Origin: Pseudomonas sp. PDM18
Lineage (GTDB): Bacteria > Pseudomonadota > Gammaproteobacteria > Pseudomonadales > Pseudomonadaceae
NCBI RefSeq assembly: GCF_014852585.1
Contig: NZ_JACVBX010000005.1
Coordinates: 310,001 to 374,000, forward strand
DNA length: 64,000 bases
Direction of reading: 5' to 3'
Position 1 is the stretch's first letter, and each line of letters begins with the position of its first letter. Below are positions 17,786-23,790 of this stretch, in pieces. The position numbers were made by a program, and so were the translations under genes. The notes beneath the pieces were generated by a model that worked only from the letters and a program-made list of their open reading frames with translations, did not search any database and had not been told where the DNA came from.

Positions 17786-18706
17786 ATGGCGAAACAACGA
17801 GCGCCTTCCCTGGGCCAGGTCAGCGACTTCGAGATCCGCCTGCTGCGCATCTTCAAAACCATAGTCGAGTGCGGCAGCTTCTCGGCCGCCGAGAGCACGC
17901 TGGGCATCAGCCGCTCGGCGATCAGCCTGCACATGGGCGACCTGGAAAAGCGCCTGGGCATGCGCCTGTGCCAGCGCGGCCGTGCAGGCTTCGCGCTGAC
18001 CGACGAGGGCCGCGAGGTGTACCGCGCGACCCAGTCGCTGCTGGCGGCGCTGGAGGGCTTCCGCGCCGAAGTGAACGAGCTGCACCAGCACCTGCGCGGC
18101 GAGCTGAACATCGGCATCATCAACAACCTGGTGACCCTGCCGCAGATGCGCATCACCCACGCCCTGCGTGCGCTCAAGGCCAGCGGGCCGGGCGTGCGGA
18201 TCAACATCGGCATGACCACGCCCAACGAGATCGAGCTGGGAGTTCTCGACGGACGGTTGCATGTGGGCGTGGTACCGCTCATCAGTCCGCTGTCGGGGCT
18301 GGAGTATTCCGCTCTCTATGAGGAGCGTTCGCTGCTGTTCTGCAGCCAGGAACACCCGCTGTTCGGGCGTGAAGATGCGGGCATCACCGTGCAGGAGATC
18401 CATGCCTGCGACGCGGTGGCGCCGAGCTACCGCATCCCGGCCGAGGCGCAGGAGCGGCATCAGGAGCTCTCCGGCAACGCCGCCGCCTCCGACCGCGAGG
18501 GCATGGCTTTCCTGATTCTCACGGGCAGTTATATCGGCTACCTGCCCGACCACTACGCCGCCGACTGGGTCGCCCAGGGTCGCCTGCGCGCGCTGCGGCC
18601 GGAGCGCTTCCACTACGACATCCCGCTGACCGTGGTGACCCGCAAGGGCCGCCGGCCGAACCTGGTGCTGGAGCGGTTCCTCGAGGCGGTGGCCCAGAGC
18701 CGTTGA
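17786..18706 (+). CDS. bauR: LysR-type regulator BauR of beta-alanine catabolism
   Basis: A 306-residue LysR protein. Its N-terminal helix-turn-helix is in FSAAESTLGISRSAISLHMGDLEKRLG, followed by the linker helix and an effector domain ending IGYLPDHYAADWVAQGRLRAL. It is divergent from bauA, as PA0133 is in P. aeruginosa, where BauR with beta-alanine activates bauABCD. It resembles the regulator of the guanidinopropionate operon at 58865, notably in the IGYLP-HYA--WVAQ-RLRA-RP stretch, so the two are paralogs of one subfamily. Confidence 0.9.
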   Translation: MAKQRAPSLGQVSDFEIRLLRIFKTIVECGSFSAAESTLGISRSAISLHMGDLEKRLGMRLCQRGRAGFALTDEGREVYRATQSLLAALEGFRAEVNELHQHLRGELNIGIINNLVTLPQMRITHALRALKASGPGVRINIGMTTPNEIELGVLDGRLHVGVVPLISPLSGLEYSALYEERSLLFCSQEHPLFGREDAGITVQEIHACDAVAPSYRIPAEAQERHQELSGNAAASDREGMAFLILTGSYIGYLPDHYAADWVAQGRLRALRPERFHYDIPLTVVTRKGRRPNLVLERFLEAVAQSR

Positions 18707-18732
18707 GCCAATCGAGAAGGCCGGCGTAGGGG

Positions 18733-18849
18733 GGATAACGTTCGACGTTATCCGCCGTTACACCGGTGCTACAAGGCACTCCGCGCTCTGCCTGGGCATC
18801 AGCAGCAAGTCACGGCGCAACGGCGTACAACCGCGAACGGTTGTACGCC
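18733..18849. repeat. Repeat-bearing spacer after bauR (18707-19097)
   Basis: The 391-base gap before the flavoprotein gene holds two palindromes: GGATAACGT-TCG-ACGTTATCC (18733-18753) and GGCGTACAACC-GCGAAC-GGTTGTACGCC (18822-18849), the latter followed by CTACG. Both resemble the REP-like family seen elsewhere, with different core letters. A CTAGCCT element at 18978-18984 may belong to a promoter. No gene is apparent. Confidence 0.65.
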
Positions 18850-19097
18850 CTACGATTTGATCCGACGCGCAGAAACCACATCCTGCCTATCCAATTTGTC
18901 GCCCCAGCCACCAAAAATCCTATAGCCCCTGCCCTGCAGCCCGCGGGCCGCGGGGTTTGCGTGGGTGCAGCTTTTCCCTAGCCTGCGACTACAAAAAACA
19001 TAATTTCGCTAATCCCAGCCTCTGAACAGAATGCGGCCAACACCTCATCGCTAGCCGCAACAAGAACAAACGTGATCAGAGTCTGAGGAAGCAAGCC

Positions 19098-20426
19098 ATG
19101 ACCGACCTGAATCCAGGCGCCTTCGGCAAGAAGTCGCTTGATAACCTGGAAATCGACACGCTGGTCGTTGGCGCCGGACAAGCCGGCGTGGCCATGAGCG
19201 AGCACCTGACCCAGCAGGGCGTGCCGCACATCGTGCTGGAAAAGAGCCGCATCGCCGAAGCCTGGCGCACCGGTCGCTGGGACTCGCTGGTCGCCAACGG
19301 CCCGGCCTGGCACGACCGCTTCCCGAACATGGAATTCCCGGTCGGCCCGGACGATTTCCCGCACAAGGAGCAGGTGGCGGATTACTTCGTCGCCTACGCC
19401 AAGCAGTTCAACGCGCCGATCCGCACCGGCGTGGAAGTGAAGAAGGTCACCCGCAACGAAGGCCGCCCCGGCTTCACCGTGGAAACCTCCGAGGGCACTA
19501 TCCAGGCCCTGCGCGTCGTCTCCGCCACCGGCCCGTTCCAGCGCCCGGTGATCCCGGCCATTGCGCCGAAGGACGAAGGCCTGTACCAGATCCACTCGGC
19601 CAAGTACTACAACCCGCAGCAACTGCCCGAAGGCGCCGTGCTGGTGATCGGCGCCGGCTCTTCCGGCGTGCAGATCGCCGACGAGCTGAACCGCGCGGGC
19701 AAGAAGACCTACCTGTCCGTGGGCGCCCATGACCGTCCGCCGCGCGCTTACCGCAACCGCGACTTCGTCTGGTGGCTGGGCGTGCTCGGCCTGTGGGACG
19801 CCGAGGAAGTGCAACCGGGTCGCGAGCACGTGACCATCGCCGTGAGCGGTGCCCGTGGTGGCGAGACCATCGACTTCCGTCGCCTGGCCAACGAGGGCAT
19901 CACCCTTACCGGCCTCACCAAGTCCTTTGCCGACGGCAAGGTGAGCTTCCAGGACGACCTGGTGGCCAACCTGAAAGCCGGCGACGACAACTACCTCGGC
20001 CTGCTCGACGCCGCCGACGCCTATATCGAGCGCAACGGCCTGGACCTGCCGCTGGAGCCGGAGGCCCGCAAGGTCTTCGCCGATGCCGAGTGCATCCGCA
20101 ATCCGATCCAGGAGCTGGACCTCGCCGACGCCGGCATCACCGCGATCATCTGGGCCACCGGCTACGCCGTGGACTTCAACTGGCTGCAGGTCGATGCCTT
20201 CGACGACAAGGGCAAGCCCAAGCACCAGCGCGGCGTGTCCCGCGAGCCGGGCGTGTACTTCGTCGGCCTGCCGTGGCTGTCCCGCCGCGGCTCCACCTTC
20301 ATCTGGGGCGTCTGGCATGACGCCAAGCACGTGGCCGGCCACATCGCCACCCAGCGCCGTTACGTCGAATATCAGGACGCCTCGCAGCGCGAAGGCTCCG
20401 TACCCAAAGCCGCATCCTGGGAGTAA
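19098..20426 (+). CDS. NAD(P)/FAD-dependent oxidoreductase (flavin monooxygenase-like)
   Basis: A 442-residue two-dinucleotide flavoprotein. The FAD GxGxxG is in LVVGAGQAGVAMSEHL, the NAD(P) site in VLVIGAGSSGVQIADEL, and the C-terminal ATG motif in AIIWATGYAVDFNW. The Baeyer-Villiger fingerprint FxGxxxHxxxW is not evident, so an N-oxidising or amine-oxidising role is more likely than ketone oxygenation. It begins a tight run with a Rid protein (3-base gap), a DUF1028 protein and an ArgE-like deacylase, suggesting oxidation of a nitrogen compound whose imine or N-acyl products are handled by the next enzymes. Substrate unknown. Confidence 0.8.
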   Translation: MTDLNPGAFGKKSLDNLEIDTLVVGAGQAGVAMSEHLTQQGVPHIVLEKSRIAEAWRTGRWDSLVANGPAWHDRFPNMEFPVGPDDFPHKEQVADYFVAYAKQFNAPIRTGVEVKKVTRNEGRPGFTVETSEGTIQALRVVSATGPFQRPVIPAIAPKDEGLYQIHSAKYYNPQQLPEGAVLVIGAGSSGVQIADELNRAGKKTYLSVGAHDRPPRAYRNRDFVWWLGVLGLWDAEEVQPGREHVTIAVSGARGGETIDFRRLANEGITLTGLTKSFADGKVSFQDDLVANLKAGDDNYLGLLDAADAYIERNGLDLPLEPEARKVFADAECIRNPIQELDLADAGITAIIWATGYAVDFNWLQVDAFDDKGKPKHQRGVSREPGVYFVGLPWLSRRGSTFIWGVWHDAKHVAGHIATQRRYVEYQDASQREGSVPKAASWE

Positions 20427-20429
20427 GAG

Positions 20430-20840
20430 ATGCCTACCCATACTCGCATTCGCATGTTCAACACCAAGGACACCTACCCGAACCAGACCCTGGACAACGA
20501 CCTCTGCCAGGCCGTGCGTGCCGGCAACACCGTGTACGTGCGCGGCCAGGTCGGTACCGACTTCGAGGGCAACCTGGTAGGGCTGGGTGACCCGCGTGCT
20601 CAGGCCGAGCAGGCGATGAAGAACGTCAAGCAACTGCTGGAAGAAGCCGGCAGCGACCTGTCGCACATCGTCAAGACCACCACCTACCTGATCGACCCGC
20701 GCTACCGCGAGCCGGTGTACCAGGAAGTCGGCAAGTGGCTGAAGGGCGTGTTCCCGATCTCCACCGGCCTGGTGGTCTCGGCCCTCGGCCAGCCGCAGTG
20801 GCTGATGGAAATCGACGTCATCGCGGTCATTCCGGACTGA
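20430..20840 (+). CDS. Rid (YjgF/YER057c/UK114) family protein
   Basis: A 136-residue Rid-fold protein, with VYVRGQVGTDFEGNLVGLGD and TTYLIDPRYREPVYQEVGKW. Archetypal RidA proteins have an arginine in the FPARS segment that activates water for imine hydrolysis; the matching segment here is FPISTG, so that position is Ser111. This is therefore not a canonical RidA deaminase but one of the other Rid subgroups often found in catabolic clusters. It starts three bases after the flavoprotein stop. Confidence 0.82.
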   Translation: MPTHTRIRMFNTKDTYPNQTLDNDLCQAVRAGNTVYVRGQVGTDFEGNLVGLGDPRAQAEQAMKNVKQLLEEAGSDLSHIVKTTTYLIDPRYREPVYQEVGKWLKGVFPISTGLVVSALGQPQWLMEIDVIAVIPD

Positions 20841-20939
20841 TCGATGAACTGAAAGACGGTGCGGCGACGCGGGACTTCCTGCCTCGCCGCTTCGTCGTTT
20901 GTGCAGGTTTGCGCGACTAGAACAAGCAAAGGAGCCACC

Positions 20940-21614
20940 ATGACCTTTTCCATCGTCGGCCGCTGCGCCGAAACCGGACAACTGGGTATCGCCATCAGCT
21001 CCTCGAGCATCGCCGTGGGCGCCCGCTGCCCCTGGGTACGCGCTGGCGTCGGCGCCGTCTCGACACAGAACATCACCCTGCCCGCCCTCGGCCCGCAGAT
21101 CCTCGACCAGCTCGAAGCCGGCCTTGAGCCGGGTGCGGCGCTGGACAAGGCGCTCTCCAGCAACGGCTACAGCCAGTACCGCCAGGTGACGGTGATCGAC
21201 CAGCACGGCAAGGTCGCGCTGTTCACCGGCAGCGAAGCGCTGGGCGTGTACAACGCCGTGGCCGGGGAAAACTGCGTGGCAGCGGGCAACCTGCTGTCGT
21301 CCCCGGCCGTGATCGAAGCCATGACCCAGGCCTTCGAAGGCGCCAACGGCTGCCTGGCCGAGCGCCTGCTGGCCGCGATGCAGGCAGCGATGGCCGCCGG
21401 TGGCGAAGCCGGTCCGGTGCATTCGGCCGCGCTGAAGGTGGTCGGCGACCTCGTCTGGCCGATCGTCGACCTGCGTGTGGATTGGGCGGACGAAGCGCCC
21501 ATCGATGAGCTGGAGCAACTCTGGGTGGCCTACAAGCCGCAGCTGGAAGACTACCTCGTGCGCGCCCTCGACCCGACCAAGGCACCCAGCTACGGTGTGC
21601 CGGGCGACGAGTAA
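20940..21614 (+). CDS. DUF1028 family (Ntn-hydrolase-like) protein
   Basis: A 224-residue DUF1028 protein starting MTFSIVGRCAETGQLGIAISS, with AVGARCPWVRAGVGAVSTQ, typical of the family. DUF1028 proteins have an Ntn-hydrolase-like fold and are suspected amidohydrolases, but no reaction is firmly established to my knowledge. AAAGGAG seven bases before the ATG fixes the start; the in-frame region before it lacks a good site. It follows the Rid gene by 99 bases and precedes an ArgE-like deacylase, with a palindromic repeat between them. Confidence 0.82.
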   Translation: MTFSIVGRCAETGQLGIAISSSSIAVGARCPWVRAGVGAVSTQNITLPALGPQILDQLEAGLEPGAALDKALSSNGYSQYRQVTVIDQHGKVALFTGSEALGVYNAVAGENCVAAGNLLSSPAVIEAMTQAFEGANGCLAERLLAAMQAAMAAGGEAGPVHSAALKVVGDLVWPIVDLRVDWADEAPIDELEQLWVAYKPQLEDYLVRALDPTKAPSYGVPGDE

Positions 21615-21624
21615 GTGACTCTCC

Positions 21625-21688
21625 TGTAGGAGCGGGCCATGCCCGCGAAGCGCTCTTTCGCCGATCGCGGGCATGGCCCGCTCCTACA
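21625..21688. repeat. REP pair TGTAGGAGCGGGCCATGCCCGCGA, inverted
   Basis: Two perfect 24-base inverted arms (21625-21648, 21665-21688) enclose 16 bases. Each arm itself contains a GCGGGC/GCCCGC dyad. It is a Pseudomonas REP-type element placed inside the operon, between the DUF1028 and deacylase genes, and is likely to affect transcript stability. Confidence 0.85.
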
Positions 21689-21712
21689 AAAGCTTTCATG
21701 CAGGACCCGACC

Positions 21713-22864
21713 ATGCCTTCCAGCCGTGAAATCCTCGCCGACCTGATCGCCTTCGACACCGTCAGCCGCAACTCCAACCTGGCGCTGATCCACTACATCC
21801 GCGACTACCTCGCAGGCTTCGGCATCGCCTGCGAGCTGTTCCACGATGCCGAAGGCGGCAAGGCCAACCTCTACGCCACGCTGGGTCCGCAGGATCGCGG
21901 CGGCGTGTGCCTGTCCGGCCACACCGATGTGGTGCCCACCGATGGCCAGCCGTGGACGGTCCCGCCGTTCGAGCTGACCGAACGCGATGGCCGCCTCTAC
22001 GGGCGCGGTACCGCGGACATGAAGGGCTACATCGCCTGCGTGCTGGCGGCGGTGCCCGCGTTCCTCGCCCAACCGCTGCGCCTGCCGGTGCACCTGGCCT
22101 TCTCCTACGACGAGGAAGTCGGCTGCCTCGGCGTGCGCTCGCTGCTCGCCGCGCTGGAGCATCGCGAACACAAGCCGATGCTGTGCATCATCGGCGAACC
22201 CACCGAACTCAAGCCGGTGCTCGGCCACAAGGGCAAGCTCGCCATGCGCTGCCAGGTGCATGGCGCGCCGTGCCACTCGGCCTATGCACCGCAGGGTGTG
22301 AACGCCATCGAGTACGCGGCGAAACTGATCGGCCGCCTCGGCGAGATCGGTACCCGCCTGGCTGCACCCGAGCGCCATGACCCGCGCTTCGATCCACCTT
22401 ACTCCACCGTGCAGACCGGCGTGATCAGCGGCGGCCGCGCGCTGAACATCGTGCCTGCCGAATGCCAGTTCGATTTCGAGGTGCGCGCGCTGCCCAGCGA
22501 CGATCCGCAACAGGTCGCCGACGACCTGCGCGCCTTCGCCGAAGCCGAGCTGCTGCCGAAGATGCGTGCGGTGAAGGCCGAGACGGACATCCGCTTCAGC
22601 GAAATTTCCGCCTACCCGGCGCTGGTCACCGACCAGCAGGCCCAGGCTGCCGAGCTGATTGCGCAGCTGACTGGCTCACGCGATTTCACCACTGTCGCCT
22701 ATGGCACCGAGGGCGGGCTGTTCCACCAGGCCGGCATCCCCACCGTGGTCTGCGGGCCGGGCAGCATGGATCAGGGCCACAAGCCGGACGAGTTCGTCAG
22801 CCTGGAGCAGTTGGCGAAGTGCGATGAAATGATGGGGCGGCTGACGGAGTGGTTGCGCGGCTGA
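21713..22864 (+). CDS. ArgE/DapE family M20 deacylase (acetylornithine deacetylase-like)
   Basis: A 383-residue M20 peptidase-family enzyme. The metal and catalytic residues are in SGHTDVVP, GRGTADMKGY, FSYDEEVGCLG, CIIGEPTEL and GTEGGLFHQAG. The length equals E. coli ArgE, and annotation pipelines would call it acetylornithine deacetylase. Most Pseudomonas make ornithine through ArgJ, so a catabolic N-acyl amino acid deacylase is at least as likely. The ATG of MPSSREIL is chosen; MQDPT, five codons upstream, is possible. It is the last gene of the flavoprotein-Rid-DUF1028 run. Confidence 0.82.
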   Translation: MPSSREILADLIAFDTVSRNSNLALIHYIRDYLAGFGIACELFHDAEGGKANLYATLGPQDRGGVCLSGHTDVVPTDGQPWTVPPFELTERDGRLYGRGTADMKGYIACVLAAVPAFLAQPLRLPVHLAFSYDEEVGCLGVRSLLAALEHREHKPMLCIIGEPTELKPVLGHKGKLAMRCQVHGAPCHSAYAPQGVNAIEYAAKLIGRLGEIGTRLAAPERHDPRFDPPYSTVQTGVISGGRALNIVPAECQFDFEVRALPSDDPQQVADDLRAFAEAELLPKMRAVKAETDIRFSEISAYPALVTDQQAQAAELIAQLTGSRDFTTVAYGTEGGLFHQAGIPTVVCGPGSMDQGHKPDEFVSLEQLAKCDEMMGRLTEWLRG

Positions 22865-22963
22865 TTCACAGCGCGGCTTACCCCGCTGCGCAGGAGCGGA
22901 CGTTGTCCGCGATGCATCCGGCTCGCTCGGAGCGGCCGGAAATCGATCGCGGATGAATCCGCT

Positions 22964-23127
22964 CGTAGGGCGCATAACCCGGAACGGGTTATCCGCCGAA
23001 TCCCTCGCGGCGGATAACGCTGGCGCGTTATCCGCCCTACGATCCCGGGATGAGGGCATGTGCTTTCAGATCAGGCTCGCCTACGAAGAGCGCATGCACC
23101 CTGTAGGAGCGAGCTTGCTCGCGAACC
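22964..23127. repeat. Two REP-type elements in the argE-like/HAD gap
   Basis: From 22964 to 23041 lies a full copy of the GTAGGGCGCATAACCC...GGGTTATCCGCC...GCGTTATCCGCCCTAC module. From 23101 to 23127 lies a single CTGTAGGAGCGAGCTTGCTCGCGAA unit. The 281-base convergent gap contains nothing else recognisable. Confidence 0.85.
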
Positions 23128-23145
23128 ACCCCCGGTCGAGGAACC

Positions 23146-23790
23146 TCAGGCAAACGCCGCCCGCAGCTCATCCAGGCTCGCGAAGTAATGCGCCGGGCTT
23201 TCCGCCATCAGCTCCTCGCGGCTGCCGAAGCCATAGCCGACGCCCGCAGCGGACAGGCCATTGCGGTGCGCGCCGATGAGGTCGTGCTTGCGGTCGCCGA
23301 TCATCAGCGTCTGTTTCAGGTCCAGTTGCTCGATGCCCAGCAGGTGCTCGATCAGCTCGACCTTGTTGGTGCGGGTGCCGTCCAGCTCGCTGCCGTAGAT
23401 CACCTTGAAGTGCCTGGCGAAGTCGAAGTGGCGGGCAATTTCCGCGGCGAACACCGTCGGTTTGCTGGTGCAGATGAACAGCGTGCGGCCCTGGCCGCCG
23501 AGCATGTGCAGCAGCTCGGCGACGCCGTCGAACACCTTGTTCTCGTACAGCCCGGTGTCCTTGAAGCGCACGCGGTAGTGGTTCACCGCTTCCCAGGCGC
23601 GCGCCTCGTCGAAGTCGTAGGTGCTCATGAAGCACTGCAGCAGCGGCGGGCCGATGAAGTGTTCGAGCTGGCGCAGGTCGGGCTCGTCGATGCCCAGTTG
23701 GGCGAGGGCGTACTGGATCGAGCGGGTGATGCCCTCGCGCGGGTCGGTGAGGGTGCCGTCGAGGTCGAAAAGGATGTTCTGGTAATGCAT
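23146..23790 (-). CDS. HAD-superfamily phosphatase (phosphoglycolate phosphatase-like)
   Basis: A 214-residue HAD hydrolase of the Gph/PGMB type. Motif I is in ILFDLDGTLTDPREGI, motif II in LFICTSKPTVFAAEI and motif IV in LMIGDRKHDLIGAHRNG, with an alpha-helical cap between I and II (FIGPPLLQCF). The aspartates needed for phosphoaspartate chemistry are present. Its substrate is unclear; phosphoglycolate or 5'-nucleotides are the usual choices. The start MHYQNILFDLDG is chosen because the upstream extension is GC-rich noise. The gene lies after the lipoprotein gene in the same direction, as near PA0065. Confidence 0.85.
   Translation of the reverse strand: MHYQNILFDLDGTLTDPREGITRSIQYALAQLGIDEPDLRQLEHFIGPPLLQCFMSTYDFDEARAWEAVNHYRVRFKDTGLYENKVFDGVAELLHMLGGQGRTLFICTSKPTVFAAEIARHFDFARHFKVIYGSELDGTRTNKVELIEHLLGIEQLDLKQTLMIGDRKHDLIGAHRNGLSAAGVGYGFGSREELMAESPAHYFASLDELRAAFA

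Follow-up and report, generated by a model that had tools for sequence, protein, structure and literature searches.

A four-gene cluster beside a bau-like group very probably corresponds to hinFLHG, the lower half of histamine catabolism

The four genes at positions 19098–22864 of the window, the whole 64,000-nucleotide stretch of DNA that was analysed, very probably constitute hinFLHG, the lower half of histamine catabolism, which would carry imidazole-4-acetate (ImAA) to aspartate. An earlier note on this DNA had read them as one conserved catabolic unit, and that part of its reading stands. Its claims that the cluster is unassigned and encodes an undescribed pathway do not, and its suggested link to bauR is unsupported. 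The set matches hinFLHG as presented in excerpts of two publications on histamine catabolism (PMC8231116, PMC6467879), and the operon, credited there to a 2018 paper and reviewed in 2021, has very probably already been described. Under the hin names they would carry, the genes and the features upstream of them are:

17786–18706: LysR gene (bauR in the earlier note), ending 391 bases 5' of hinF and lying 3' of a bauA-like/cupin/mmsA group
18991–19009, + strand: candidate HinK (LysR) site ACAAAAAACATAATTTCGC, starting 107 nt 5' of hinF, pattern ACAAANNNNATAATTT
19098–20426, + strand: putative hinF, 442 aa, flavoprotein, Pyr_redox_3/FMO-like
20430–20840, + strand: putative hinL, 136 aa, Rid protein, PF01042
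20940–21614 (reading frame open from 20859), + strand: putative hinH, DUF1028 protein, PF06267
21698–22864, + strand: putative hinG, 388 aa, M20 peptidase, ArgE-like

All four open reading frames lie on the + strand, as first described, and Pfam and NCBIfam models agree with the families originally proposed (flavoprotein, Rid, DUF1028 and ArgE-like deacylase). The listing of reading frames gives gaps of 3 and then 99 bases between hinF, hinL and hinH, matching the earlier values; the third gap is 83 bases if hinG begins at ATG 21698, and the 98 bases previously given presuppose the second start, ATG 21713, either of which could be the true one. The start of hinH is most likely ATG 20940, which opens the protein with Met-Thr-Phe-Ser, because all 76 of the HinH genes readable 3' of the Rid gene among 80 named loci open with MTFS. 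An antisense open reading frame of 898 aa (18978–21674, − strand) crosses hinF, hinL and hinH and is most likely a high-GC artefact. A simple scan of 18700–23200 for promoters and terminators detected no sigma-70-type site and three terminator-like sites against 2.8 expected by chance, a level at which the scan is uninformative on transcript ends.

The gene order and families fit the published F-L-H-G arrangement one to one on a single strand. This match to the published HinF, HinL, HinH and HinG (AWA45227–AWA45230) was judged by family, order and context, and HinH of the published operon is equated with the DUF1028 protein by position and exclusion. In excerpts of a review on histamine, hinFLHG are the enzymes for the conversion of imidazole-4-acetate to aspartate, the P. 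aeruginosa genes are PA5393 (hinF), PA5392 (hinL), PA5391 (hinH) and PA5390 (hinG) with log2 inductions by histamine of 7.9–11.1, and HinK binds the hinD and hinF promoters (PMC8231116). Excerpts of the second publication list HinF as EC 1.14.13.5, HinL as an enamine deaminase, HinH as an amidase and HinG as an amidase of EC 3.5.1.8 (PMC6467879).

In one locus from the genus (L075), genes for an aldehyde dehydrogenase, an amino-acid permease and a class III aminotransferase come immediately after the set, and a LysR gene lies next on the opposite strand. The families of these genes were read by similarity to Pfam-scanned genes; these neighbours are presumably the hinD-hinA-hinC-hinK group of histamine catabolism. 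The succession of hinFLHG and hinD-hinA-hinC recurs in several named loci, for example in P. putida 31753 (L172), P. protegens 14B2 (L181) and P. donghuensis (L173). The window genome itself carries hinC, hinD and hinK on another contig (C5), 84%, 80% and 82% identical, respectively, to the hinFLHG-linked genes of L075. That cluster (L193:2383–10226) consists of hinK, a carbon-nitrogen hydrolase gene placed between hinK and hinD, hinD, hinC, a solute-binding protein and an NCS1-type permease; a search of the window genome, run without a positive control, returned no match to the HinA-type permease of L075. HinC and HinK each occur in all 25 genus genomes and are both present in the window genome, and histamine use is therefore expected in the window strain. 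At E 1e-90, HinK was found in 13 of 398 phylum genomes, all inside the 19 with HinL at ≥85% identity (hypergeometric 3e-20, ignoring kinship); with up to six candidates scored per genome, the remaining 6 of these 19 had no HinK at this threshold. Of the 80 named loci, 32 have HinK at ≥70% identity, 19 HinD, 18 HinC and 9 the L075-type HinA (≥60%); at least one of hinK, hinC and hinD at ≥70% is present in 39, and none is in the fetched stretch in 41.

These neighbourhoods also bear on the possibility that imidazole-acetate or a related imidazole acid is imported directly, with hinFLHG used alone and histamine not the usual starting point. Seventeen of the 80 named loci combine hinK (≥70%) with an NCS1-type permease, with hinC and hinD (70%) absent from the fetched stretch (examples are L108, L125, L135, L137 and L162), and the hinDC cluster of the window genome also includes an NCS1 permease. 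However, the stretches span at most 9 kb per side and hinC and hinD may sit elsewhere, and the occurrence of hinC and hinK in the window genome and throughout the genus sample makes direct import as the usual route improbable. Rut-like pyrimidine, pyridoxine and thiamine routes, prompted by NCS1, GMC and NMT1 neighbours, were dropped on the hinDAC linkage, and homarine catabolism was dropped with nothing relevant among the literature matches listed.

The earlier note had proposed a neighbourhood search for the four families and had staked its reading on the conservation of the set, which proved to be strong. DUF1028 is present in all 25 genus genomes and all four genes are together at each of these 25 loci, a grouping that is far from chance. 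In the class sample, DUF1028 at E 1e-20 is limited to 10 of 274 genomes, the window genome included; the short loci of the other nine hold all four genes in two cases and three genes without M20 in one, and the set was not seen in six. In the phylum sample, the Rid protein at E 1e-45 occurs in 29 of 398 genomes, at 85–100% identity in 19 and at 55–69% in 10 more, which may be paralogues. The 80 named loci are the best 80 Rid matches of at least 577, and 73 of them keep the four-gene order on a single strand within 2.5 kb. A locus was scored as ordered when its flavoprotein, DUF1028 and M20 matches shared the strand of the Rid gene at distances from it of up to 2.5, 1.5 and 2.5 kb, respectively. 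Among the seven misses, L110, L122 and L130 are without DUF1028 and M20 near Rid (in L110 and L122 both lie at other places in the fetched sequence), L118 and L150 are without M20, L140 is without the flavoprotein and L178 has Rid alone. Median identities in these loci are 74% for the flavoprotein (78 loci), 75% for DUF1028 (79), 72% for M20 (76) and 97% for Rid (80, range 95–100%), the last being partly selected because the loci were chosen as the best Rid matches. Rid evolves at a far lower rate than the other three proteins, with for example 90% identity versus 49–68% in L068 and L069.

In the scheme proposed here, HinC (aminotransferase) and HinD (aldehyde dehydrogenase), from the other contig, would convert histamine to ImAA, and HinF would use NAD(P)H and O2 to hydroxylate the imidazole ring. 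HinH, perhaps with Thr2 as nucleophile, would then open the cyclic amide of imidazolone acetate, HinL would hydrolyse the C=N bond of the resulting N-formimino-aspartate with release of ammonia, and HinG would remove formate from N-formyl-aspartate to leave aspartate. Imidazolone acetate, N-formimino-aspartate and N-formyl-aspartate would be the intermediates of the route. HinK, a LysR regulator responsive to ImAA, would probably activate both the upstream and the hinFLHG parts. The order of chemistry anticipated in the earlier note, oxidation followed by handling of an imine or enamine and then amide hydrolysis, holds up well in its fit to hinFLHG. The gene set, its order, its conservation and the partner genes in this scheme are drawn from the sequence and neighbourhood of the window genome, the pathway and the EC numbers of HinF and HinG are taken from papers on other strains, and we infer the steps given to HinH and HinL, the intermediates and the control by HinK in the window strain. 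The primary papers on the hin genes are reportedly de la Torre 2018 and Wang 2021, and the 2018 paper may already have assigned the HinH and HinL steps. Among the literature matches listed for formiminoaspartate and related terms, judged by title and opening of the abstract, the histamine review (PMC8231116) was the only one to concern these enzymes.

HinF carries GxGxxG motifs at residues 25 and 185 and ATGY at 353–356, and is presumed to be an FAD- and NAD(P)H-type monooxygenase, the imidazole-4-acetate monooxygenase of EC 1.14.13.5. Its closest NCBIfam model is MSMEG_0569 (TIGR04046), which we take to be the Nit1C cluster flavoprotein, and a score of 361 bits, under the cut-off of 498, led to the rejection of HinF as a protein of that type. 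In 11 of 40 wider Rid stretches no HinF was seen. Four of these (L094, L096, L099 and L102) hold a member of the HpaB-type monooxygenase family, which adjoins Rid in L096, L099 and L102 and lies 8 kb off in L094, and a flavin reductase family member is present in L094, L099 and L102; both families were named from one Pfam-scanned representative each. The HpaB-type gene fits an oxygenation step, and no such substitute was seen in the other seven stretches. Separately, a PhyH-type dioxygenase and an amino-acid-type ABC transporter gene stand 5' of hinF in L119, L123, L130 and L134, hinting at another imidazole substrate.

The alignment with RidA-type proteins (1oni) places Ser111 of HinL at the position of the RidA catalytic arginine, which is absent from HinL, as had been pointed out from the window alone. 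Serine occupies this position in 81 of 81 close Rid matches and, in the search of 40 stretches, in 38 of 39 wider matches, the remaining one having cysteine. In published excerpts on the family, approximately 10% of RidA proteins also have serine at the catalytic arginine position, and the activity of the arginine-less Rid4–Rid7 subfamilies is described as unknown (PMC4433059).

HinH passes the PF06267 model with 236.7 bits against a curated cut-off of 26.2, and 2imh is a solved relative. The literature searched returned no paper on DUF1028, either alone or combined with other words. Thr2 is invariant in 17 aligned HinH sequences. N-terminal nucleophile hydrolases use an exposed N-terminal residue as nucleophile, and the MTFS start would expose Thr2 likewise, which makes Thr2 a possible nucleophile of HinH on the basis of this precedent and the Thr2 start. 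Taken together, it is conceivable, at slightly less than even likelihood, that the Ser-for-Arg site of HinL hydrolyses an amidine-type C=N bond, as an N-formimino-aspartate deiminase (EC 3.5.3.5), and that the DUF1028 protein HinH is an N-terminal-threonine hydrolase opening the imidazolone ring.

HinG has the M20 and dimerisation domains in Pfam and is presumed from the gene order and the published EC number to be the N-formylaspartate amidohydrolase of EC 3.5.1.8. The gene could instead be the acetylornithine deacetylase of arginine biosynthesis and a neighbour by chance, for it passes TIGR01892, the equivalog model for ArgE acetylornithine deacetylase (414.5 bits, cut-off 297.7), and scores above the cut-off of NF005710. 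Despite these model scores, the genomic context argues for HinG over ArgE: in 73 of the 80 named loci, which come from several genera, the gene keeps its place 3' of hinL and hinH, and PA5390 is induced by histamine (log2 7.9) with the rest of its operon in the excerpts of the review (PMC8231116). A biosynthetic deacetylase placed there by chance is thus very improbable.

An AT-rich block is conserved 5' of hinF and a similar block lies 5' of the window genome's own hinD. The pattern of the candidate HinK site was drawn from these two upstream sequences, and it is exact in front of both genes. Across 81 sequences 5' of hinF it is exact in 32 and has one mismatch in 8 more, and none of 405 base shuffles contained it at 0–1 mismatch. 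In nine other hinD upstream sequences it has one mismatch in one, two in one and 3–5 in seven, where 50 shuffles gave 3–6. The pattern is absent from all 15 named loci in which the best HinK match is below 60%, and also (≥3 mismatches) from 14 of the 31 with hinF and HinK at ≥70%.

The earlier note had proposed a so far undescribed route that degrades an N-substituted amino acid and, from the position of the cluster, a tie through BauR to the catabolism of beta-alanine or polyamines. The nearby LysR gene, itself 3' of the bauA-like/cupin/mmsA group, is consistent with such a tie, and the bauA-like/mmsA/LysR group also adjoins the cluster in four of six longer stretches from other genus genomes. 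Against this, the bau group is adjacent in only 6 of the 80 named loci, Pseudomonas, Burkholderia, Paraburkholderia and other bacteria have hinFLHG without this neighbour, hinK lies on the other contig, and a matching operon has been published with a function. The bau group next to hinFLHG looks lineage-specific, a connection with bauR, beta-alanine or polyamines finds no support, and a BauR-linked pathway is highly unlikely.

The identification of the cluster as hinFLHG is primarily of value as a correction, placing a known pathway behind genes that family models label as flavoprotein, Rid, DUF1028 and 'acetylornithine deacetylase'. The operon also offers a concrete candidate substrate for one Ser-type Rid. 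If true, the reading of HinL and HinH would link both the Ser-type Rids and DUF1028, a family of unknown function by name, to a specific reaction. The result is an ordinary, already described operon at a lineage-specific site, for which a modest enzymatic question remains.

Among known systems, the Rut pyrimidine pathway combines a monooxygenase acting on an N-heterocycle (RutA), an amide hydrolase (RutB) and a Rid protein (RutC); the other Rut enzymes belong to other families, and the RutC model matches HinL weakly (32 against a cut-off of 169). The MSMEG_0569 flavin oxidoreductase resembles HinF as the nearest NCBIfam model and differs in that HinF misses its cut-off. The RidA imine deaminase shares PF01042 with HinL, but its catalytic arginine is replaced by serine in HinL and nearly all orthologues seen. 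The closest counterparts are hinFLHG of P. putida U and PA5393–PA5390 of P. aeruginosa PAO1. The window cluster differs from these in its lineage-specific place 3' of a bau-like group, and the window genome in its hinDC cluster, where an NCS1 permease is present and a HinA-type transporter was not detected, but the four genes share the same families, order and strand, and hinC, hinD and hinK are present in the window genome.
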